Assembly: GCA_024640255.1 (NCBI GenBank)
Contig: JAHEFI010000001.1
Coordinates: 248,001 to 312,000 of the forward strand
From: Bacteroidota bacterium
GTDB lineage: Bacteria; Bacteroidota; Bacteroidia; Chitinophagales; Chitinophagaceae
DNA: 64,000 nucleotides
Direction of reading: 5' to 3'
Each line of letters begins with the position of its first letter. The stretch's first letter is position 1. This document shows, in pieces, positions 45,755 to 58,556 of the stretch. The position numbers were made by a program, and so were the translations under genes. Under the pieces are notes generated by a model. It was not told the DNA's origin. It saw only the letters and a program-made list of their open reading frames with translations, and did no database searches.

Positions 45755-46519
45755 TTACTTTATTTCAGATCTTAAAAGTCTTATAAGGGCGTCGTTACTT
45801 TTTTTAGCTCGCTTCAAATTTGTTCTATATACAAATAGGTAGTTGTAATATTTTTGAACTTCATAAATAAATTCATCAGATCTCAATAAATTTTTTGTTT
45901 TATCTAAGTCGAACATAAAATTTTGAAATCCATCTGGGTCATTTAAAACGTACTCGTTTGAAAAATTTTGTTTTTCTCTTATAAGTTTTCCTATACCAAT
46001 TGGGTAGTAGTTATTAAAAACAGTACCAACTTGATCAAAAAATTCATTAGTAGCTTCAATTGCTTTAAAATCTACTTCATAATATGTAGCCAAAGTGTCT
46101 TTTAAATCACCTTCTTCTAAATTACCTAGTAAGCCACTTGACTGAAGATTTTTAAATGAACTATTGTTCACATATAATGTTGTAGAATAAGCAATAAGCT
46201 TTGGAATTGTTTTGAAAGAGTCAATTAGCTGAGCTTGACTTATTTTATTGGTCTTAGCAAGGTATAAAAGATTATTTATCTTATTGAATCTTAAAATGCA
46301 GCTATCTTCAACTGCAAGCACATGTTCAATTTCTATTGAGTCCGCAAGTAAATCTTTTAAAATAGCTATTTTATTTTGTTCAATCTTATGATTAATTACT
46401 TGATGTTCTCTAAGATTTTCGGCTAGAAATCCTAGCGTTACCGCTGCAAATAACATGATGAATTCTGTAATATATTCTTTCCAGTTTTTTGGTTTGTGAC
46501 TGTGGTGATGTACTTCCAT
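45755..46519 (-). CDS. MEVHH-family single-TM protein, array 2 gene 3
   Basis: MEVHHHSHKPKNWKEYITEFIMLFAAVTLGFLAENLREHQV. Confidence 0.75.
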   Translation of the reverse strand: MEVHHHSHKPKNWKEYITEFIMLFAAVTLGFLAENLREHQVINHKIEQNKIAILKDLLADSIEIEHVLAVEDSCILRFNKINNLLYLAKTNKISQAQLIDSFKTIPKLIAYSTTLYVNNSSFKNLQSSGLLGNLEEGDLKDTLATYYEVDFKAIEATNEFFDQVGTVFNNYYPIGIGKLIREKQNFSNEYVLNDPDGFQNFMFDLDKTKNLLRSDEFIYEVQKYYNYLFVYRTNLKRAKKSNDALIRLLRSEIK

Positions 46520-47304
46520 TATTTATATATTGGTTCAATTAATTTTAATAGTTGTGCGCCTTGATCTCTTAGCTCTATCTGAAATCTTAAACCCACTGTA
46601 GTTCTTTCTTGTCTTAAATGCCATGCTTTGGCTAAAGTTTCAATTTGCTCATTAGTTAGTTTTGTAGTTTCTAAAGATTTTGTAATTCCATCTTTAAATT
46701 TGGAATAATTTTCATAACGAAATTTATGGAAAGTGGAATCTAATTTATTTAACAATTTTAATTCTTCCTCACTATGATATTTAAAAAAAGATATTGGTAA
46801 AATTTTGGTAATTGTAGGTCTAAATTCTGCATTATATTGCTCAAGTTCAACCATTGATCTTGTTTCTGCTTGACTTGCATTTTCTTCATACCTTAATATA
46901 GCATTTAACACCTCCTTATTTTGAATATATCTTAATGATCCTGAATTTTTCATTTCTTCAAATATTGTTTTTTTATTGGAGAAACGATATAACCATAAGT
47001 CAATACTTTCAGATAATTTTTTTAAGTCAACCTTTTGTTTTTCAAAACCATATATTAAAGATAATGAGTCATAATAGTTTACAGTTCTTTGATTGTTAAT
47101 AATTATTGAATCTAATTGTTTTTGATTTTCTTTTACATCCAATATGAAAGATTTAATAAATTCTTCTGATCTTTCACTTTCAGTATGTTTTTCTCTAACA
47201 TTTTCAGCAATAAAACCCATACTGACTGCCAGAAACAACATCAGAAATTCGGTTAAATATTCTTTCCATTTTTTGGGATGATGCGAATGATGATGTACTT
47301 CCAT
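46519..47304 (-). CDS. MEVHH-family single-TM protein, array 2 gene 2
   Basis: MEVHHHSHHPKKWKEYLTEFLMLFLAVSMGFIAENVREKH; TAATG overlap. Confidence 0.75.
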   Translation of the reverse strand: MEVHHHSHHPKKWKEYLTEFLMLFLAVSMGFIAENVREKHTESERSEEFIKSFILDVKENQKQLDSIIINNQRTVNYYDSLSLIYGFEKQKVDLKKLSESIDLWLYRFSNKKTIFEEMKNSGSLRYIQNKEVLNAILRYEENASQAETRSMVELEQYNAEFRPTITKILPISFFKYHSEEELKLLNKLDSTFHKFRYENYSKFKDGITKSLETTKLTNEQIETLAKAWHLRQERTTVGLRFQIELRDQGAQLLKLIEPIYK

Positions 47305-48032
47305 TATTTATTATTTTCTATTAAATTTATTGCTTTGTTTGCATAATATGACATTGAATCCATATCAACTGTAAGTCCATCAAAAACACCCTTGGTTGTT
47401 GCTAAGAAAATAATTGCTTTTTTGCTAGCTTCTGGTTTTATTGTTGTTATCCCCATTTTGCTTTCTAAAGGTGGTGATGGGTATCTCCAAATTTTATAAA
47501 CAATTTCTTCATCTGCAATTTGAGGAAGAATTTCATTGATAAATAATTTTGCCTGTTCTTCTAATATTTTATCTCCTTGGATATAGTCATTCATCCAAAA
47601 ATTATATTTCTTTATGAAATAAGCTAGATCTCTATTTTCTTCTTTAAAGAAATACCCCTTTGATTCAGCATCTTTAATACTTTTATCATTAGGGTAAAAA
47701 AAATAATTTGGAGCATAATTCATTATATCCCTATAATAATCTTTTTGGTCTACTTTGTTTGGATTTGTATTTAATATAATTTTAATACTATCTGAAAACT
47801 TATTTTTTTCTGATGCCAAACCTTTTAGTGTTTGTAATTGCTCTAAATCACTTCTTAAATCTTTAGCAACCACATGTAGTAATTCTTTAGCTTTATTTTC
47901 CTCTGCTAAATGTTCTCTTATATTTTCAGCAAAAAAGCCTAATGTTACAGCAAGGAATAGCATAAAAAATTCCAAGAAATATTCAGACCATTTCTTTTTG
48001 TGTGCGGGATGGTGTGGGTGATGTACTTCCAT
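47304..48032 (-). CDS. MEVHH-family single-TM protein, array 2 gene 1
   Basis: MEVHHPHHPAHKKKWSEYFLEFFMLFLAVTLGFFAENIREH; TAATG overlap. Confidence 0.75.
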   Translation of the reverse strand: MEVHHPHHPAHKKKWSEYFLEFFMLFLAVTLGFFAENIREHLAEENKAKELLHVVAKDLRSDLEQLQTLKGLASEKNKFSDSIKIILNTNPNKVDQKDYYRDIMNYAPNYFFYPNDKSIKDAESKGYFFKEENRDLAYFIKKYNFWMNDYIQGDKILEEQAKLFINEILPQIADEEIVYKIWRYPSPPLESKMGITTIKPEASKKAIIFLATTKGVFDGLTVDMDSMSYYANKAINLIENNK

Positions 48033-48099
48033 TTTTGTATTTATTGTCTAATTAAGAAACGTTTATTTAGCCAATAAAGTCAAATAAACAGTAAGTAAT

Positions 48100-48124
48100 T
48101 GTTCCAATTTAGATAAAAGGAACA
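48100..48124. promoter_or_regulatory. dyad TGTTCC-N13-GGAACA upstream of MEVHH array 2
   Basis: TGTTCCaatttagataaaaGGAACA, about 68 bp upstream of the first MEVHH start. Confidence 0.7.
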
Positions 48125-48138
48125 TATTTGGTTTAAAA

Positions 48139-48176
48139 ATAAAAAAGGGTCTACGCTTTTGACAGCATAAACCCTT
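48139..48176 (-). terminator. duplicated tRNA-Met terminator
   Basis: Minus strand AAGGGTTTATGC-TGTCAAAA-GCGTAGACCCTTTTTT, 12-bp stem with two G-U pairs. Confidence 0.7.
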
Positions 48177-48239
48177 GAAAATCTTGCCTTTCGGCTGTGG
48201 GCCCACCAGGGCATGATCCTGGGACCCCCTGATTATGAG
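48142..48239 (-). repeat. 98-bp direct repeat, copy A: 3' half of tRNA-Met plus its terminator
   Basis: 96/98 identical to 54141-54238; last 78 bp identical. Confidence 0.92.
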
Positions 48240-48360
48240 CGTTTAAAAGCCAGTTCTAGCTATTTTCATTTATTGATATTCAATCACTTCTGTACTCAAA
48301 ATAGATTTAGTTTTCCTATATTTCACCTGCTTTTGAAGTTTTTTATAAGATCTGGCACCA

Positions 48361-50028
48361 TTATTTTGGTTTTATACTATTTGCATAAACATCGTATTTG
48401 TAAAAGTCATCTTCAGTAAATTGACTACCACTTCTAATAAAAACAGATTTTCTTGTTAAAGATTTATTCCAATAGTTATGTGGATCTATGTATGAAAAAT
48501 CTGCTTGTCCGTCACCATTGAAATCATGGAAAATCAACCAAGGCTTCCAAGATGAGCCTGGTGATCCACTATGTCTTGAAGCATTAATTGAATATATGAA
48601 TTTTGAATCATCTAAAGTGAAACTGCCATCTTTATTTTGCATGTAAAGGTGAAAATAGAAATCATCATAATTAGTAGCTCCAGAACAAATTATATCATTT
48701 AAGCCATCACCATCAAAGTCTATTAATCTAAAATCACTATTTAATGAACCTTCTTTGAAGTATGGTAAAAAAGTAATTGAATTATTATCAAACTTTCCAC
48801 CTCCCTTATTGTATACTATCCTACTGCTTAATGTAAACGGAAGATAAGTTGTTGTAACCATGCTATTTTCATTAGTACCCTCAATTATATCTTTCCAACC
48901 ATCTTTATTTACATCGGCAATTTTAATATTATACACACCACCTCCACCTTTATTTAAATTATTATTATCCCAAATATTAAAATATGTAACATTACTACTA
49001 AAGTATGGATAATCTGGAATACCCCAGGCTATATACATGTCACCTGTTGCTACAACCAAATCAGGATAGCCATCATTATTCAAATCAGCAATATCACCAC
49101 TATGATTGTATTTTAATACTGGAGTAATGTTTGTCAAATCTTTTAAATCGTAACCACCTTTGCCATCTGAAAGCACTAACCTAATTGGTTGAAGTGGATT
49201 TGATGTAGTAACATCATCTCCGTGATCAAAAATGACGACATCAGTATAACCATCTTTATTAATATCATATGCAATAGATCTTCTTTGATTACCACCAAAA
49301 TGTTGTAAAGTTTTAACATTGAAAAGTGATTTATTATCAAAAGATTTTGTTGATGGATTCCATATTAACCATTGAGCATTGTCCATTGGTTGTGAATTAT
49401 AAGACCCAGTTCCTGGATTAAATACATCAATCCAACCATCATTATTAAAATCACCCACAATTAATTGAGGCATAAAGCCACTCCATTGTGTTCCATAATT
49501 AGGATTTATTGGTTGTCCAAATTTGAACATTAAAACATCCCACATAACACCACAATCTCTCCAATAATTTATTTCATCTTTTGATTTTAAGTATGAATCT
49601 ACCTTATAACCCATGAACCTACCTAATGGATTATTAACTACCGTAATAGATTTATTTAAAGTATTTGAAGAAGTTACTTTAGAGGTTACATTTATATTAA
49701 TTGAATAATTTCCAGGTTTCTTAAATCCCGGAATTTGAATTAATAAACTTGATTGACTTAAACTTGAGTCTAACTTAAAAATTTGTTTAGAACTATCAAT
49801 CCAAGTGGCAGTTACGGAATATAAGACTCCAGAAGTAGGTAATTTTGAAATAACTGATATTACTAAAGGTAATGTATCGGCTACATTATAAGTTCCTGTA
49901 TCAAGATTTGTAGTGAATTTTATATTCTCTTCTTGAATTGAAATTATAACAGGAGGTGTTGTAGTTTTTTCTGTTTTAGTACAAGAATAAATAAGTATTA
50001 TAAAAAAAATCAAAATATTTTTTTTCAT
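48361..50028 (-). CDS. FG-GAP/VCBS-repeat lipoprotein
   Basis: Lipobox FFIILIYSCTKTE; repeated DFNNDGWIDVF, DLNNDGYPDLVV, DFDGDGLNDI. Confidence 0.85.
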   Translation of the reverse strand: MKKNILIFFIILIYSCTKTEKTTTPPVIISIQEENIKFTTNLDTGTYNVADTLPLVISVISKLPTSGVLYSVTATWIDSSKQIFKLDSSLSQSSLLIQIPGFKKPGNYSININVTSKVTSSNTLNKSITVVNNPLGRFMGYKVDSYLKSKDEINYWRDCGVMWDVLMFKFGQPINPNYGTQWSGFMPQLIVGDFNNDGWIDVFNPGTGSYNSQPMDNAQWLIWNPSTKSFDNKSLFNVKTLQHFGGNQRRSIAYDINKDGYTDVVIFDHGDDVTTSNPLQPIRLVLSDGKGGYDLKDLTNITPVLKYNHSGDIADLNNDGYPDLVVATGDMYIAWGIPDYPYFSSNVTYFNIWDNNNLNKGGGGVYNIKIADVNKDGWKDIIEGTNENSMVTTTYLPFTLSSRIVYNKGGGKFDNNSITFLPYFKEGSLNSDFRLIDFDGDGLNDIICSGATNYDDFYFHLYMQNKDGSFTLDDSKFIYSINASRHSGSPGSSWKPWLIFHDFNGDGQADFSYIDPHNYWNKSLTRKSVFIRSGSQFTEDDFYKYDVYANSIKPK

Positions 50029-50116
50029 TATTTAAAAAGTATATTTATTTGAATAATATTATGATGAATTAATTCCTACTTTAACAATATTAACTACTTC
50101 ATTTTTAAAAGTAATT

Positions 50117-51775
50117 TTAAGGTTTTATTAAGGATTTTAAACTTGCAGCAAAGGGATCAAATTGATAGTAATCTTGTTCTACAAATTGATTCCCTTGACG
50201 AATAAAAACTGATTTATATATAATTTCACCATTATCAGCATCATCAATATATGATAAGTCTTTTTTACCATCTCCATTATAATCAAAATATAATATTCTT
50301 GGTTTATACATGCCTTTTCTTGAATTATTGATTGAATAATTTATTAATGAGTTATCTATAGAAAAAGATTTATCTTTTTGTTGAAGATAAAATACGAAAT
50401 TCCATTTATTATATAAAGTAGTATTTAATGCTACAATATCATTCAGTCCATCGCCATTAATATCGTCAACTATATAATCTTGAATACCAACCATCAAATC
50501 GTTGTTATTAAAATTAGGCAATATAATTAATCCATTTTTATTAAACCTTCCTTTGCCCTGATTGATTAAAACTCTATTTTTTGAAAGATCATTTGAGGCA
50601 ATCAAGATATCTTTTTCACCATCATTATTAACATCAGCAATTGTTGCATTATAAGCATCTCCTGCAGCTTGCGGAAATGATTCACCAAAACTATTATTTC
50701 CGGGAAAATTAATACTATCACTACCGAAATGTGCATAATTTATATCACTAAAATAAGGAGCAGTAGAATTTCCCCAAAATATGAAACTATTTGAATTACA
50801 TGTTATAAATAAATCTACATTCCCATCTGAATTTAAATCACCAACATCACCACCTTCAATTGTAAATTGTGAATATTTTGAGGGAATATTCACTTTATTA
50901 ATATCGTAACCTCCTTTTCCATCACTTAGGCAAATCATCATAGGTTGATTAACACTTGGTTGAAATCCCTCATCAGCATGACCAAAAATCACCAAGTCAA
51001 CATAGTTGTCATTATTTAAATTTAATGAAATCACTTTTACTGGATTTTTTAAATCAAAAGTTCCGTCATTAAATAAATTTTTTTCCTCAAATTTTTTAGT
51101 TGTAGGATTCCAGATTAAAAAAGCTGATTTTGCTTGTATCCCTTTATAGTCTGCCCCACCATTAAAAACATCTATATATCCGTCATTGTTGAAATCACCA
51201 GCTGCTAATGATAGAAGAAAAGTGCCATATTTATTTCTATCGCCATATGGTTTTTGAAATACAATAGTAATTAAGTCTAACATTACACTTGTATTATACC
51301 AATATGATAAACCTTTATCTTTTTGTCTTGTTTTAGCTAATGTTTCTTGATCTATTTTATATCCTGTAAACCTAGCTAAAGGGTTGTTAATAAAAGAAAT
51401 TGACTTATTAATTGTATTTGTAACACTTGATTTAGAAGTGATATTAATTCCAATAGAGTAATTACCTGCTTTTTTGAGACCAGGTATATTCAAGTTTAAT
51501 ATTGAAACTGAAAGACTAGTATCTAATTTAAAAATCTGTTTTGAACTATCTGTCCAATTAATTATAATAGAATAAATAACTCCTGCTGTTGGTAATTTTG
51601 AACTTACTGTAATTACTAAAGGTAATGTATCGGCTACATTATAAGTTCCTGTATCAAGATTGGTTGTGAATTTTATTAACTCTTCTTCAACGACTTTAAC
51701 AGGCAGGGTTCCTTTATCGGTTTTACTACACGCAATAAAAAATAAAATACCCAAAGCAAAGATTACTCTTTTCAT
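50117..51775 (-). CDS. FG-GAP/VCBS-repeat lipoprotein
   Basis: Lipobox LGILFFIACSKTD; DFNNDGYIDVF, DLNSDGNVDLF, DINGDGLNDIVA. Confidence 0.85.
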   Translation of the reverse strand: MKRVIFALGILFFIACSKTDKGTLPVKVVEEELIKFTTNLDTGTYNVADTLPLVITVSSKLPTAGVIYSIIINWTDSSKQIFKLDTSLSVSILNLNIPGLKKAGNYSIGINITSKSSVTNTINKSISFINNPLARFTGYKIDQETLAKTRQKDKGLSYWYNTSVMLDLITIVFQKPYGDRNKYGTFLLSLAAGDFNNDGYIDVFNGGADYKGIQAKSAFLIWNPTTKKFEEKNLFNDGTFDLKNPVKVISLNLNNDNYVDLVIFGHADEGFQPSVNQPMMICLSDGKGGYDINKVNIPSKYSQFTIEGGDVGDLNSDGNVDLFITCNSNSFIFWGNSTAPYFSDINYAHFGSDSINFPGNNSFGESFPQAAGDAYNATIADVNNDGEKDILIASNDLSKNRVLINQGKGRFNKNGLIILPNFNNNDLMVGIQDYIVDDINGDGLNDIVALNTTLYNKWNFVFYLQQKDKSFSIDNSLINYSINNSRKGMYKPRILYFDYNGDGKKDLSYIDDADNGEIIYKSVFIRQGNQFVEQDYYQFDPFAASLKSLIKP

Positions 51776-51787
51776 ATTTTAAGATTT

Positions 51788-51815
51788 AATCTATCCTTTG
51801 GGGTAATCAAATATA
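51788..51815 (-). promoter_or_regulatory. putative promoter/leader: TATATTTG -7 box plus ACCCCAAAGGATAGATT-like leader
   Basis: AATCTATCCTTTGGGG at 51788-51803 identical to 54012-54027; TATATTTG at 51808-51815 (minus). Confidence 0.5.
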
Positions 51816-51823
51816 TGAAAAAA

Positions 51824-53998
51824 TTATAATTTCAACATCTTAAATTGATAAGCTATTTTATTATCGTTTGACATTACTTTTATTATGTAAGTTCCTGTTG
51901 ACAATTGACCAAGATTTATTTGAATTCCCGGTATTAAATTTTGTTTAATAGCAACAATAGTCCCTGTTGCTAAATCAATTACTTCTATATTTAATCTCTG
52001 ATAGCCTTTAACTACAAAATCAAAATTTAATTGGCTAATAAAGGGATTTGGCGCAAGTTTGATATATTCTTCAGAATTTAAATTTATAACATCAGTGACT
52101 AAAAAATAGTACGGTGAACTCGTAGCACTAGTACATCCATTTTGAGTAGTTTTAACTGTATAAGAACCAGGAAGGATTGGTTTAATTTTTTGTGTAGTAT
52201 CTGTAATTAAAGCTCCATCTTTGTACCAAGTATTTCCGATACTAATACTTGATATTAGATAGTTTGCAGTATCTCTAACTATTGAAGGATTTGATGGAAT
52301 AGGAAGTTTAACTAAATTTATTGTATCAGAAGAAATTAAACAACCCAAACTGTCGGTTCTAGTAACAAATAATTTACTACTATCCGTAAATGATTTGCTA
52401 GAAATATTGCTTAAATCAGTTTTTGATCCATAAAACCACCTCAATGAATCTCCTTTATTTATATTGGTTATTGTTAATTTCAATGAATCACCTGTACAAA
52501 ATGAAAATTTATTAGTATTAAATATTGGTTTCTGTAATCTACCTGGTAAACATATTATTCTTTTCTTCAATGTACTTAACAATGATTTTGCAAATAAATC
52601 ATATTGATAATAATCCTTTTCAATAAATCTACTTCCTTCTTTTATAAACACAGTTTTAAATGGCATTATATTACCAGTATTTAAAACCGAATCATACATT
52701 CCACAATCGTCACCCCATGCTGAATTTATATATCCGATATCCATTTTACCATCATTATTATAATCATAACTAAAAAGATGAGTTCCTGAACCTCCTGAAC
52801 CTCCTAGAATTTTAGTCTTAAATGATGATGAAAATTGTATTATTGTAGTATCATAATAAAATGAATGATCGGATTTTTGAATTACAGAATAAATATTATT
52901 ATAAGATCTTTTTCCATTTAAGCCACCTCCCGTAACCGTAATAAAATCATTTAATCCATCACTATTAATATCCATCATCATATAATCACCACCATCACCT
53001 TGTGGTATATATCTTGGAATATTTATTACATTTTTATCATTAAAGCGCCCTAGTCCTTGATTAATAATAATTTTGTCATCTGTAGGATTTGCGCCATAGA
53101 CTATTAAGTCATTTTTACCATCATTATTTACATCAGAAATTACACCACCAAATGAATTGGCGCAACTTGAGCATGCTTCACCAAATCCGTTATTACTCAT
53201 AGTCGGAAAACTATTTAAGTCACTTACAAATAGAGGGTGATTTTTTGAATCAAAAAATGGGAAATTGGATGTACCCCAAAATATATAAGCAAAATTATTT
53301 GCTGAAATATACATATCTGGAAGTCCATCTCCATTTAAGTCATCAATATCTCCTGACCCTTTATAAATAGTCGGCTTTCCATTTGGTGTACCTGGAGGAA
53401 ATACATCATTTTCGTTTGTAATTATTTCAGAATAATCATATCCTCCTTTACCATCACTAATTATTAATTTAATTGGAGCAAAAGCATCATCACCTGGAAA
53501 TATTACAATATCAACATAATTATCTGAATTTAGATAAACTGGAACAGCCTTCATTGCACTAATTAGAACTTCAATTGATTTATCTTTAATTAGATTAGTG
53601 TCTTTAAATACTTTATTTACACTATCCCATAATAAGAAGGAGAATCCAATACCTCGATTTCTATCTTTATAACTAGCAGAGTCAATTCCTCCAGGCGTAA
53701 AAACATCAATCCAGCCATCATTATTGAAATCTCCACATATTGAACCACCCCAACCACCTTGAATACAATTACGTTGAGTTGCAATTTGAGAAAAACTTAA
53801 AGGGTTTTGAAAAGTTTGAACAACTAAATCTTTCATTAAAGGAAAATTTCTTTTCCAAAATGTAGCACCTAATTTTTTTACATCGTTTGGAGCTTTGTAG
53901 CCTTTAAAATTTTTAACTACAGAGTCTAGATTTTGAGTTTGAGCAAAAGTGATTTGAGTTGTAAGTAAAATCCCTAAAGCTAAGATTATTCTTTTCAT
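51824..53998 (-). CDS. FG-GAP/VCBS-repeat secreted protein with T9SS type A sorting domain
   Basis: Start trimmed to MKRIILALGILLTTQITFAQ; VCBS repeats; C-terminal LAPNPFISQLNFDF...GQLSTGTYIIKV. Confidence 0.88.
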   Translation of the reverse strand: MKRIILALGILLTTQITFAQTQNLDSVVKNFKGYKAPNDVKKLGATFWKRNFPLMKDLVVQTFQNPLSFSQIATQRNCIQGGWGGSICGDFNNDGWIDVFTPGGIDSASYKDRNRGIGFSFLLWDSVNKVFKDTNLIKDKSIEVLISAMKAVPVYLNSDNYVDIVIFPGDDAFAPIKLIISDGKGGYDYSEIITNENDVFPPGTPNGKPTIYKGSGDIDDLNGDGLPDMYISANNFAYIFWGTSNFPFFDSKNHPLFVSDLNSFPTMSNNGFGEACSSCANSFGGVISDVNNDGKNDLIVYGANPTDDKIIINQGLGRFNDKNVINIPRYIPQGDGGDYMMMDINSDGLNDFITVTGGGLNGKRSYNNIYSVIQKSDHSFYYDTTIIQFSSSFKTKILGGSGGSGTHLFSYDYNNDGKMDIGYINSAWGDDCGMYDSVLNTGNIMPFKTVFIKEGSRFIEKDYYQYDLFAKSLLSTLKKRIICLPGRLQKPIFNTNKFSFCTGDSLKLTITNINKGDSLRWFYGSKTDLSNISSKSFTDSSKLFVTRTDSLGCLISSDTINLVKLPIPSNPSIVRDTANYLISSISIGNTWYKDGALITDTTQKIKPILPGSYTVKTTQNGCTSATSSPYYFLVTDVINLNSEEYIKLAPNPFISQLNFDFVVKGYQRLNIEVIDLATGTIVAIKQNLIPGIQINLGQLSTGTYIIKVMSNDNKIAYQFKMLKL

Positions 53999-54011
53999 AG
54001 ATAATTTTTTC

Positions 54012-54041
54012 AATCTATCCTTTGGGGGTATTACAAATTTA
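54012..54041 (-). promoter_or_regulatory. putative promoter/leader: TAAATTTG -7 box plus conserved leader
   Basis: Same 16-bp leader as 51788-51803; TAAATTTG at 54034-54041 (minus). Confidence 0.5.
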
Positions 54042-54139
54042 AATAGTTCCAATTAATTCCATCCCTTTACATCGATTTACTCCTGTTTTTCTTCAAAAAA
54101 ACAAAACCTGGTCCAAACTTGGCCGAGAATTACCCCAAA

Positions 54140-54175
54140 CAAAAAGGGTCTACGCATTTAACAGCATAAACCCTT
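54140..54175 (-). terminator. tRNA-Met terminator
   Basis: Minus strand AAGGGTTTATGC-TGTTAAAT-GCGTAGACCCTTTTT. Confidence 0.75.
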
Positions 54176-54238
54176 GAAAATCTTGCCTTTCGGCTGTGGG
54201 CCCACCAGGGCATGATCCTGGGACCCCCTGATTATGAG
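54141..54238 (-). repeat. 98-bp direct repeat, copy B (inside/after the intact tRNA-Met)
   Basis: See copy A at 48142-48239. Confidence 0.92.
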
Positions 54239-54270
54239 TCAGGTGCTCTAACCAACTGAGCTATAGGCCC
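54197..54270 (-). tRNA. tRNA-Met (CAT anticodon)
   Basis: GGGCCTATAGCTCAGTTGGTTAGAGCACCTGACTCATAATCAGGGGGTCCCAGGATCATGCCCTGGTGGGCCCA; all cloverleaf arms pair. Confidence 0.93.
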
Positions 54271-54354: not shown

Positions 54355-55086
54355 ATGAAGAAAGTATTTTTATCTATCGCGGCAGTGTGGTTCTTTGGAG
54401 TAGTTGCAAATGCCCAAACTAAGAGTTCAACAAATGTAGATTTAACCGGCAGAGCCGCAGATCATTTAATGTTCCAATTTGGTACAGATACATGGTTGAA
54501 TACTCCCGATAGTGTAAAATTAGGTGGCGGAACAAGCAGACACTTTAATGTGTACTTCATGTACGACAAGCCTTTTAAGACAAATAAGCATTATAGTTTA
54601 GCTTATGGTGGTGGAATAGGAACATCTAATATCTTTTTTGATAATCATACTAATGTGGATTTAAAATCTACAGCAGCAACTTTGCCATTTAGAAAAATCG
54701 ACGCAGCTGCTAATCACTTTAATAAAGTAAAAGTTGCTACAATCTATTTACAAGCTCCAATTGAAATTAGATATTATAGTAATCCCGAAAATCCAGGAAA
54801 GTCTTGGAAATACGCAGCTGGTGTAAAAGCGGGATTTTTATATAAGTCGTATACTAAATCTAAAAACTGGGTTAACTCAGCTGGAAATTCTATTTATGGA
54901 AAATCTTATGTAGTTAAAGAAGCTAATAAAAGATTCTTTAATGCAACTGATATTAGTTTAACAGGTAGAGCCGGATATGGTATTTTCTCTTTAGATGTAG
55001 GTTACCAAGTAACAGGCGTTTTAAGAGATGGATATGGTCCAGTGATGAACAGATTTTCTGTTGGATTTACAATAAGTGGGTTATAA
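54355..55086 (+). CDS. putative outer-membrane beta-barrel protein
   Basis: Signal peptide; alternating aromatic/Gly strands; final FSVGFTISGL. Confidence 0.65.
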   Translation: MKKVFLSIAAVWFFGVVANAQTKSSTNVDLTGRAADHLMFQFGTDTWLNTPDSVKLGGGTSRHFNVYFMYDKPFKTNKHYSLAYGGGIGTSNIFFDNHTNVDLKSTAATLPFRKIDAAANHFNKVKVATIYLQAPIEIRYYSNPENPGKSWKYAAGVKAGFLYKSYTKSKNWVNSAGNSIYGKSYVVKEANKRFFNATDISLTGRAGYGIFSLDVGYQVTGVLRDGYGPVMNRFSVGFTISGL

Positions 55087-55106
55087 TAAAATCATTATAA
55101 AAAACT

Positions 55107-55132
55107 AAAACCCTCTTTACGGAGGGTTTTTT
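55107..55132 (+). terminator. rho-independent-like terminator
   Basis: AAAACCCTC-TTTACG-GAGGGTTTTTT. Confidence 0.8.
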
Positions 55133-55150
55133 ATTCAAACGAGTTTTAAC

Positions 55151-56338
55151 TTGATCGAGAAAAAACAAATATTACAAGAAGAACAAAGAGCTGTGCTAGT
55201 TGGTGTGATTCAAAAAGATCAAACCGAGGAACAAGTAAATGAATATCTAGATGAATTAGCTTTTTTAGCAGAAACTGCAGGCGCTAGTACAATTAAAATT
55301 TTCAAACAAAGATTACAACATCCGGATAGCAGAACCTTTGTAGGTAAAGGAAAGTTAGAAGAGATAAAGGATTATGTAAGATCTAGAAATATTAATTTGG
55401 TAATTTTTGATGATGAATTAACAGGTTCGCAAATTCAGAATATCGAAAAAGAATTAGGCACTAAGACCATTGATAGAAGTGACCTAATCCTAGACATTTT
55501 TGCTAGTAGAGCAAGAACTGCACAAGCAAAAGTGCAGGTTGAATTAGCGCAATATCAATACTTATTACCAAGATTAAAAGGTATGTGGTCTCACTTGGAA
55601 AGACAGGGAGCGGGTATTGGTTCAAGAGGTCCGGGTGAAACAGAAATAGAAACGGATAGACGTATTGTTAAAGATAAAATCTCTTTATTAAGAAAGCGTT
55701 TACAAGAAATAGATAAGCAAGCGTTCACACAAAGAAAAGATAGAGGTGAGTTTATTCGTGTTGCGTTGGTTGGATACACGAATGTGGGCAAGAGTACAAT
55801 CATGAACTTATTAAGTAAGAGTGAAGTGTTTGCGGAGAATAAATTATTTGCCACTTTAGATACTACTACCAGAAAAGTGGTTTACGAAGCAACCCCTTTT
55901 TTATTAAGTGATACTGTTGGATTCATCAGAAAATTGCCTCACCATTTAGTAGAAAGTTTTAAGAGCACATTAGATGAGGTAAGAGAAGCAGATGTTTTAT
56001 TACATGTTGTAGATATTTCTCATGCACAATATGAAGATCAAATTGCGGTTGTTAATAAAACTTTACAAGAGTTAAAAGCATTTGATAAACCATGTGTTAT
56101 CATATTCAATAAAATGGATTTATACAGAGAGAAATATTTTGATGAATGGATTTCAGACGAAGTAAAACAAGATCTTTTATTTGAATTAAAAGAAAAATGG
56201 AGTTGGGAAACTAATAACAATTGCGTTTTTGTTTCTGCTGTAGAAAAACAAAACATTGAAGAATTAAGAACCATCATTTTACATAAAGTAAGAGATATGT
56301 ATCAAATTAAATATCCTTACAAAACAGTCTTCTTTTAG
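55151..56338 (+). CDS. hflX: ribosome-associated GTPase HflX (TTG start)
   Basis: GAGIGSRGPGETEIETDRRIVKDKISLLRKRL, VGYTNVGKSTIMNLL, DTVGFIRKLPHHLVESFKSTLDEV. Confidence 0.94.
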   Translation: MIEKKQILQEEQRAVLVGVIQKDQTEEQVNEYLDELAFLAETAGASTIKIFKQRLQHPDSRTFVGKGKLEEIKDYVRSRNINLVIFDDELTGSQIQNIEKELGTKTIDRSDLILDIFASRARTAQAKVQVELAQYQYLLPRLKGMWSHLERQGAGIGSRGPGETEIETDRRIVKDKISLLRKRLQEIDKQAFTQRKDRGEFIRVALVGYTNVGKSTIMNLLSKSEVFAENKLFATLDTTTRKVVYEATPFLLSDTVGFIRKLPHHLVESFKSTLDEVREADVLLHVVDISHAQYEDQIAVVNKTLQELKAFDKPCVIIFNKMDLYREKYFDEWISDEVKQDLLFELKEKWSWETNNNCVFVSAVEKQNIEELRTIILHKVRDMYQIKYPYKTVFF

Positions 56339-56347
56339 AATTTCATT

Positions 56348-56680
56348 ATGGAATGGCATTTAATCTCTGACGCTCCTTTAAGTTTAGAATGGTCCGATCA
56401 AAATATGGTAGATCTGGAAGTGGCAGGTAAAAAAATTACATTAGCCAGATGGAAAGAAGGTTTTTATGCCTTTTCCCAAAAATGCCCCCATGCTAGTGGA
56501 AGAATGTCAGCTGGATATATCAACCCCCTTGGACAGGTGGTTTGTCCATTACACCGATATGCTTTTGATATGAAAAATGGCCGAAATACAACGGGAGAGG
56601 GCTATTTTTTAAAGACCTACCCAGTGGAAGAGCGCCCAGAGGGAATTTTTATCGGTTTTAAGCCGAATTCTTTCTTTTAA
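56348..56680 (+). CDS. Rieske [2Fe-2S] domain protein
   Basis: CPHASGRMSAG ... CPLHRYAFD. Confidence 0.88.
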   Translation: MEWHLISDAPLSLEWSDQNMVDLEVAGKKITLARWKEGFYAFSQKCPHASGRMSAGYINPLGQVVCPLHRYAFDMKNGRNTTGEGYFLKTYPVEERPEGIFIGFKPNSFF

Positions 56681-56733: not shown

Positions 56734-56810
56734 TCCTCCTTAGCTCAGTTGGTTAGAGCATCTGACTGTTAATCAGAGGGTCTCAGGTTCAAGTCCTGAA
56801 GGGGGAGCCA
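56734..56810 (+). tRNA. tRNA-Asn (GTT anticodon), CCA encoded
   Basis: TCCTCCTTAGCTCAGTTGGTTAGAGCATCTGACTGTTAATCAGAGGGTCTCAGGTTCAAGTCCTGAAGGGGGAGCCA; acceptor stem pairs. Confidence 0.95.
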
Positions 56811-58317
56811 TAATAGACAGGAGGTCATTTTCGACCTCCTTTTTATTTTTAGACACTTCTAACTCTTTGATTATCATAAGTAAAATTGACACTGGTTTAG
56901 AAAAGGGGGTGGTTGCAACTCGTCCATTTTCAATTACCATTTTTTCATCAAAAATACAACCAAGGATTTTCTTCTTGGTACGTCCATCAGCTTTACGAAA
57001 GAACTGCACTAGGTTTTCCAACATAGGTACTTCCTTGGTAATATAGTTCTTATAGGTGCTACCAACCTTCAAAACAGTATTAAGATTTGACTCTGCAATT
57101 ACAATGTCCTTTTCAACCAATGCTTTAAGGTCATGGTATTCTTGTGGATCAATATCGTTGTCTAAAAATCGCTCCTGAAGAGTAGATTTGCGCAACTTAA
57201 ATTTTGCTACTTCCTTCTGTAGCTTTTCTATTTCAACCTTGCGTTGAAAGTCCTCACGATCAAAGATCCTTTCAAGTATTTTACGGTAGAGATTAAGTGA
57301 TTGTGCAGACAGTTGAATCATCTCAAGAATGTCTTCTACAGACTTATGAGCAGCTGAAATTCTATGTCGACTTTTACATTGATTTACAGGACATACATAA
57401 TAGTGGTGAATTGATTTGTTTCTGCTTAAAGCTCCGTATGCAGTTAATGGTTTATTATGAACAGGACATGCTAAAAAGCCCTTCAATGGATATAAGTCAG
57501 ATTTATCGTCATGGAACTTCATCTTTCTTTTACGTCCGTTAAGAACTTCATTAGCTCTGTAATAAATTTCTTCACTGATTAATGGTGGATGAAGTCCTTG
57601 ACTTAATTGCGATGGTTCTTTCTTCCATTCCTTCACGTATATTTTTCCCATGTAAGCGGGGTTGCGTATCAAGTCAAGAAAAGTTTGTTTGTGCATCTTC
57701 ATCCCTCGCTGATTAATCCATCTTCTAATTTCGTCTGCTGCGTAACCTCCACTAGCCATTTTCTCAAATGCTTCAATTATTATTGGTGCGTCGTTATTTG
57801 GTTTCAATGTTGATTTATCGCCATCACGGTAATTTGAATAACCTCTTGGTGCTGAACCTGTCCAACATCCTTCAATTTGAGCACGCCTCATCCCTTCTGT
57901 TGTGCGAATAGAATTCTTATCATTTTCTATCTCGGGTAATGTAAGGTATAAGGATAGCAGAACCTTATTATCGGGATTGCTGAAATCAATATGCTGCTCA
58001 ACTGTACCAACTCCAACTCCTAATTTCTCCAATTCTTTAATGGTAGTTAAAGCATCATACTGATTTCTTGAGAAGCGATCCCATCTAAGACACAGCACTT
58101 GGTCTACTGACTTCTTGTGCTTTTTAATGTAAGCCATTAGCTTTTTCCATTCAGGTCTATCAAAAGTTTTACCTGAATAGTCCTCGGTGTAGGTATCAAT
58201 GATATTGTATCCACGTAGGTTACAGTAGTCGTTTAATACCTTCTCTTGGTGTTGTAAACTAAACCCACGATCTGCTTGATCATCGGTGCTTACTCTCTTG
58301 TATAATATTACGTTCAT
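56773..58317 (-). CDS. large serine recombinase (resolvase + recombinase domains)
   Basis: MNVILYKRVSTDDQADRGFSLQHQ, LRWDRFSRN, recombinase domain, coiled coil; C-terminal MAPPSGLEPETL is antisense tRNA sequence. Confidence 0.9.
   Translation of the reverse strand: MNVILYKRVSTDDQADRGFSLQHQEKVLNDYCNLRGYNIIDTYTEDYSGKTFDRPEWKKLMAYIKKHKKSVDQVLCLRWDRFSRNQYDALTTIKELEKLGVGVGTVEQHIDFSNPDNKVLLSLYLTLPEIENDKNSIRTTEGMRRAQIEGCWTGSAPRGYSNYRDGDKSTLKPNNDAPIIIEAFEKMASGGYAADEIRRWINQRGMKMHKQTFLDLIRNPAYMGKIYVKEWKKEPSQLSQGLHPPLISEEIYYRANEVLNGRKRKMKFHDDKSDLYPLKGFLACPVHNKPLTAYGALSRNKSIHHYYVCPVNQCKSRHRISAAHKSVEDILEMIQLSAQSLNLYRKILERIFDREDFQRKVEIEKLQKEVAKFKLRKSTLQERFLDNDIDPQEYHDLKALVEKDIVIAESNLNTVLKVGSTYKNYITKEVPMLENLVQFFRKADGRTKKKILGCIFDEKMVIENGRVATTPFSKPVSILLMIIKELEVSKNKKEVENDLLSIMAPPSGLEPETL
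56819..56845 (+). terminator. tRNA-Asn terminator, inside the recombinase CDS (antisense)
   Basis: AGGAGGTC-ATTTTC-GACCTCCT + TTTTT. Confidence 0.75.
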
Positions 58318-58556
58318 AGTTTGTAGTATTTTGCGAGAGCTAATTTTTGTAGCACTCGTATTCAATTTGAGCGAGAGACTTCATTAAGTCCTCCACTAAC
58401 TTTAAGTCATGACCAGTGACTCGTTCATTTTTTAAATGGTCTTGGTTTTTGCTGAAATCACTTTCCATAGATTTTAATTTAAGCGTGGCTGGCTGTTGCT
58501 AAAATACTTTACCATCCAACCAGCACACGCTAGCTTAGTTACTTTCATAGATAGTA

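Follow-up and report, generated by a model that had tools for sequence, protein, structure and literature searches.

A putative gene cassette without an integrase gene at a tRNA-Met gene of a Chitinophagaceae bacterium, probably mobilized in trans

A tRNA repeat and the DNA it brackets

How did three genes of FG-GAP proteins come to lie between an intact tRNA-Met gene and a copy of the 3' half of that gene, and what recombinase could have placed them there? The question arises in a stretch of 64,000 nucleotides, the window, which was analysed together with the genomes of relatives. The answer that we prefer, with a probability of about 0.8, is drawn from sequence comparison: positions 48240-54238 would represent an integrated cassette devoid of an integrase gene that was moved in trans by a tyrosine integrase acting at tRNA-Met.

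A first-pass annotation had described a direct repeat of 98 bp at 48142-48239 and 54141-54238 with 96 identical positions. Comparison of the window sequence with itself reproduced the coordinates, the direct orientation and the location of the two mismatches (48157 and 48161 versus 54156 and 54160) inside the loop of the terminator hairpin. The 98% identity over 98 nt rules out a chance match, and across the whole assembly just two places match the repeat. The repeat takes in the whole 7-nt anticodon loop (54232-54238), starting at its 5' edge, runs to the 3' end of the tRNA, with all 43 nucleotides of the 3' half identical, and continues for 55 nt that include the terminator hairpin, as the annotation had read it. 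ARAGORN and Rfam call a single intact tRNA, anticodon cat, and none at the left copy of the repeat. The intact tRNA possesses a GGGCC acceptor stem and an unusual T-loop (ATCATGC) that is common in the genus. It may be a tRNA-Ile2 (lysidine) instead of a tRNA-Met; ARAGORN reads the anticodon alone.

The earlier statement that the bracketed DNA consists of three FG-GAP genes and lacks a recombinase agrees with the ORFs and the domain searches, which revealed three FG-GAP ORFs and no recombinase between the repeats. The ORFs are intact, the genes are tandem paralogs, and two of the three proteins have lipoprotein-like N-termini, as judged by eye. A search of named genomes with the FG-GAP proteins matched only two lake MAG contigs, both without the cassette ends described below. 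An assignment of the bacterium to Bacteroidota is supported by these lake matches and by T9SS, TonB and SusG-type genes. A comparison of base composition had been suggested as a check; the G+C content is 0.286 inside the cassette, 0.301 to its left and 0.338 to its right, so it says little.

Conserved ends and unrelated cargoes

A search of relatives with the tRNA region yielded many more 3' fragments, often several per contig. Nearly all of the approximately 50 copies inspected share one end point, the base at the border of the anticodon loop. In 27 copies besides that of the window, the fragment edge is followed by the same sequence of about 139 nt, designated the L-end, which in most copies contains ATTGATAATCAAT 32 nt from the fragment and, at its inner edge, two direct repeats AACCTGGCCGGG. 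Over the first 120 nt, the L-ends have mean pairwise identities of 0.76-0.97, mostly 0.87-0.97; the value falls to 0.66 over the next 20 nt and to 0.35 beyond, where the cargo starts. On the opposite side, a conserved R-end of about 150 nt separates the cargo from the tRNA half; it has arm-like repeats AACYTGGCC followed by the terminator hairpin. We propose that the integrase binds to the arm-type direct repeats that each end carries. The L-end occurs in 41 of the 147 species of the genus, and of 40 L-ends whose outer border is intact, 30 directly adjoin the tRNA half, with the register exact in nearly every case; the loci examined closely were picked by similarity to the tRNA and the L-end, and their counts are therefore not those of a random sample.

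In five species, the tRNA half just outside a cassette L-end is remodelled (L030:10728-10756, L037:8897-8925, L085:1695-1723, L090:8154-8182 and L139:1374-1402). The acceptor, variable and loop parts are retained, and the T-arm is replaced by the perfect palindrome TCCCGAGNACTCGGGA. The palindrome-bearing half is present in a single copy in each of these five genomes and in none of the other 142.

Thirteen cassettes, including that of the window, are bracketed by both ends; they range from 1.0 to 8.4 kb. None of the 12 others contains a full-length integrase gene, and an integrase-like ORF was found in just one of the 13, encoding a catalytic domain of 192 aa without the arm-binding part. Their cargoes comprise FG-GAP proteins, MEVHH proteins, a LytTR two-component system, a HigB/HigA-like toxin-antitoxin pair, amylases, a TonB receptor, Fic and an enzyme with a metallo-beta-lactamase fold. 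A profile search also revealed degenerate end remnants inside some cassettes. Locus L058 (G083:C3) contains a nearly cargo-free cassette, with the ends, two tRNA halves and about 516 nt between the two fragments.

FG-GAP genes also adjoin tRNA-Asp in G000, G014, G065 and G087, and a second tRNA-Met in G000. In G014 and G065, copies of the last 13-14 nt of tRNA-Asp plus the terminator enclose them, and these units carry a conserved end of their own (GAGTTCTCACTTAACTCAAA...), unlike the L-end of tRNA-Met. A second cassette family with its own ends at tRNA-Asp seems to behave likewise.

Both ends were recognized in the window (Table 1). An L-end profile built without the window copy matched 48251-48356 with an E value of 2e-4. 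In a global alignment, 86 of 139 positions agreed with the consensus, and the alignment score was 100, compared with a maximum of 69 among 1500 random segments of the window; the identity to other L-ends is about 57%. The R-end was found with a profile built from other genomes. The proposed cassette would be composed of an L-end of about 139 nt, a cargo of three FG-GAP surface proteins and an R-end of about 150 nt.

Table 1. Features of the putative cassette and its surroundings in the window, and loci of cassettes at tRNA-Asp
Feature	Position	Strand	Basis or remark
Three MEVHH-family genes	45755..48032	-	Probably an adjacent, older cassette
Terminator region in the displaced copy	48142..48196	-	Matches R-end profile positions 100-155 only
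Displaced tRNA 3' half, anticodon loop to 3' end	48197..48239	-	43/43 identical
L-end of the window cassette, divergent	48240..48378		ATTGATATTCAAT at precisely 32 nt from the fragment; the second arm repeat has been lost
FG-GAP repeat lipoprotein, 555 aa, cargo	48361..50028	-	ORF and domain search
FG-GAP repeat lipoprotein, 552 aa, cargo	50117..51775	-	ORF and domain search
FG-GAP protein, cargo, weak match to T9SS sorting domain	51824..53998	-	Start is an internal ATG; listed ORF extends to 54052
R-end of the window cassette	54049..54195		Arm-type direct repeats (CCTGGTCCAAACTTGGCCGAGAATTACCCCAAAC) and terminator hairpin; E 1.6e-39
Intact tRNA-Met(cat), target	54196..54270	-	ARAGORN and Rfam; 3' half (54196-54238) presumably supplied by the cassette
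Conserved right chromosomal flank: outer-membrane protein, hflX, Rieske gene	54355..56680	+	ORFs, domains, comparison with relatives
tRNA-Asp cassette loci	L127:3089 and 564, L128:8123		Numbered on the reverse complement of the respective locus

To the left of the window fragment, 45755-48140 is probably an older, eroded cassette, because genes of the MEVHH family are the cargo between cassette ends in L021, L025 and L032. In G154, the left neighbour of the MEVHH genes (DUF3472) has its ortholog almost next to a tRNA fragment. The left fragment of the window has kept the terminator part alone of an R-end, and a search to its left for a degenerate L-end that would close the older MEVHH cassette found none, even with the filters off.

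Further recombinases lie to the right of the cassette. The gene of a large serine recombinase (56773-58365) ends inside tRNA-Asn (56734-56810), and the C-terminus of the protein reads MAPPSGLEPETL. Past it follows a further element with a DNA methylase-like gene and a tyrosine recombinase of 189 aa just beyond the window. No second copy of tRNA-Asn was found.

Movement of the cassettes and a candidate helper integrase

Excision in silico of a 984-nt cassette (L072:5615-6598) from G075 leaves a sequence that aligns through the junction with G072 over 5.5 kb at 95.4% identity; to the left of the junction, the alignment continues for only about 95 nt until another difference. This clean empty site, of the kind that the first-pass annotation had recommended looking for, belongs to a sister cassette and not to that of the window. 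Nor do all relatives hold FG-GAP genes at the window's locus, an arrangement that the annotation had set against integration: in G154 (hflX 89%), both flanks of the window's own site are shared, other elements are present, including three full-length integrase genes, and the second FG-GAP protein of the window has no match. Locus L059 (G154:C2) displays three tyrosine integrase genes of different islands within 8.2 kb in the same tRNA array.

Transfer between species is indicated by the gene in this 984-nt cassette: G107 shares it at 95.6% identity with G075 and G120, compared with 76-77% for nusA; in G107, the tRNA is located in a different gene neighbourhood. The L-end also occurs in other genera of the family, with identities of up to 96%, and in G386 it abuts the host's own tRNA half, which matches that of this genus at 37 of 43 positions only. 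It follows that the L-end travels, that the adjoining half is that of the host and that the crossover lies between them. The LytTR cassette was likewise considered as a test of horizontal transfer, but its 96.5% identity between G012 and G130, versus 95% for hflX, says nothing on transfer, the two hosts being closely related. Exact L-end and core patterns were not found in viral contigs, nor was the L-end in phage and plasmid records.

Integration targeted to the tRNA, as the first-pass annotation had suggested, is supported by the conserved ends, the crossover in the anticodon loop, the varied cargo and the empty site of a relative. According to the model that we favour, a tyrosine integrase acting in trans would catalyse recombination between the tRNA-Met anticodon loop and its counterpart at the end of a circular cassette. 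The tRNA would be restored by the 3' half and the terminator borne by the cassette, and the original 3' half would be displaced by 6 kb along with the old flank. Both ends, the crossover interval, the varied cargoes, a relative's empty site and the transfer across species and genera are seen in the sequences; the identity of the acting integrase, the circular intermediate and the vehicle that carries the cassettes between cells are inferred.

Tyrosine integrases of several families adjoin tRNA fragments in relatives. The best candidate for the helper of the cassettes is Int419, a tyrosine integrase of 419 aa with SAM-like and catalytic domains, which might supply the integrase activity from larger islands that share the L-end. 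It is intact in three of the 147 genomes (G163, G157 and G034; 82-87% identity) and in all three its gene is found at the side of a cassette L-end that faces the cargo, at a distance of 1.1 to about 11.5 kb. In G163 and G034, it is accompanied by an excisionase-like HTH_17 gene and a DNA methylase. Int419 has no match in the window's assembly, which is 86.6% complete, and none was found in viral contigs. As noticed post hoc, the three Int419 elements have arms of the GGCAG type, in common with about three other L-ends, versus the GGCC type of most cassettes, so that the cognate integrase of most cassettes may be another. Either one enzyme accepts both GGCAG and GGCC arms or the main helper is still unseen. 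In the window's assembly, two FG-GAP genes are positioned between another tRNA-Met and the gene of a 423-aa tyrosine integrase (L114:2592-7727, G000 C40); relatives of this integrase directly adjoin the tRNA in L115 and L117.

The strongest competing explanation posits that an island with its own integrase inserted at the tRNA and then lost the integrase and most of its genes, with the FG-GAP genes as fixed leftovers. The eroded L-end of the window, the failure to find the candidate helper in the assembly and the use of the same site and L-end by integrase-bearing islands would all fit such a decay. Decay is nevertheless the less likely reading: it is common to find sister cassettes (1-8 kb) that share both ends, hold unrelated cargo and show no trace of an integrase, and at least one of them has moved recently without an integrase gene. 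Moreover, the window has intact FG-GAP ORFs and a 98-nt repeat with just two changes. The annotation had left the choice between a relic and a passenger mobilized in trans. A passenger is supported for the cassette family, whose cargo and ends are common to species and genera. For the window copy, a relic is possible because its L-end is divergent and the assembly is without an Int419 match.

A less probable explanation, and a rather doubtful one, is that homologous recombination among repeated tRNA fragments exchanges cargo in a pre-existing array without any integrase. The repeats and R-ends (98-200 nt) are long enough for RecA-dependent exchange, and the degenerate end remnants within cassettes suggest fusions and deletions, but an array cannot begin at an empty site in this way, and such exchange would explain neither why L-ends with arm repeats are conserved nor why the crossover falls in the loop in other genera. 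Homologous recombination may add to later cassette turnover. Slippage or unequal exchange might instead have duplicated the tRNA 3' half locally, next to ancestral FG-GAP genes. Apart from the existence of the repeat, and the fact that the FG-GAP genes are tandem paralogs, nothing speaks for this already disfavoured explanation, which is highly improbable in view of the cassette-specific ends, the exact anticodon-loop register across species, the differing cargo of relatives and the empty site.

Putative passenger cassettes compared with known systems

Mobilization in trans of an integrase-less cassette thus being the preferred reading for the window, a broader one can be put forward tentatively, at somewhat less than even odds: an integron-like cassette economy based on a tRNA, in which adaptive genes travel in minimal units that bear just two ends of about 140-150 nt and a tRNA half, depend on a rare integrase acting in trans and form arrays that regenerate the tRNA with each insertion, across a family of lake bacteria, with a separate tRNA-Asp family that would do likewise. 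Islands without an integrase are commonly dismissed as relics; the defined ends, the unrelated cargoes and the recent transfer argue for a working route of gene exchange. This route would let genome-streamlined bacteria gain and lose genes for surface proteins, transport, signalling, polysaccharide use and toxin-antitoxin pairs. The cassette ends can serve as a search key with which cargo and helper integrases are listed from sequence alone, and they make it testable whether one integrase serves many passengers.

A literature search for islands and tRNA in Sediminibacterium, the presumed genus, yielded no paper. Among the closest known systems are the cis-mobilizable elements (CIMEs), which are described as decayed ICEs or IMEs and undergo tandem accretion (PMC5704250). 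Like CIMEs, which are flanked by att sites at a tRNA, lack integrase and transfer genes and stack in tandem with other elements (PMC5704250), the window cassette has attL and attR with a common core, and three FG-GAP ORFs only between them. Its ends are common to integrase-bearing islands, and no remnants of ICE or IME genes were found in the cassette. The difference is that here the integrase-less form is common, the ends are shared in 41 of 147 species and the cargo is swapped.

The ssrA islands of Dehalococcoides, also among the closest systems, are likewise in tandem and bounded by repeats of the 3' end of a tRNA-like gene, and 15 of 31 are without an integration module (PMC3146451). Their recombinase is a serine enzyme of the CcrB family (PMC3146451), whereas a tyrosine integrase with arm-type repeats in the two cassette ends is implied here; the integrases beside the fragments of relatives are of the tyrosine type. 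The additive flexible genomic island fGI-2 of Methylopumilus, a streamlined lake bacterium, contains 20-nt repeats of tRNA-Lys, and in it, as here, recurrent 3'-end repeats of one tRNA bound variable cargo; the excerpt of that source describes neither conserved cassette ends nor a helper integrase (PMC10872708). Tycheposons, as outlined in the same excerpt, resemble the cassettes as cargo elements at tRNA genes but bear their own tyrosine recombinase (PMC10872708), which is absent from the window cassette. Gene cassettes of integrons are also small cargo units without an integrase that stack at one site and are moved in trans; they employ attC and IntI, neither of which was noticed here, whereas the boundaries here are att sites of the tRNA type, with two long ends and a tRNA half. 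What distinguishes the present cassettes from the known systems is that the integrase-less form is the commonest and that two defined ends enclose unrelated cargo and are shared across genera.
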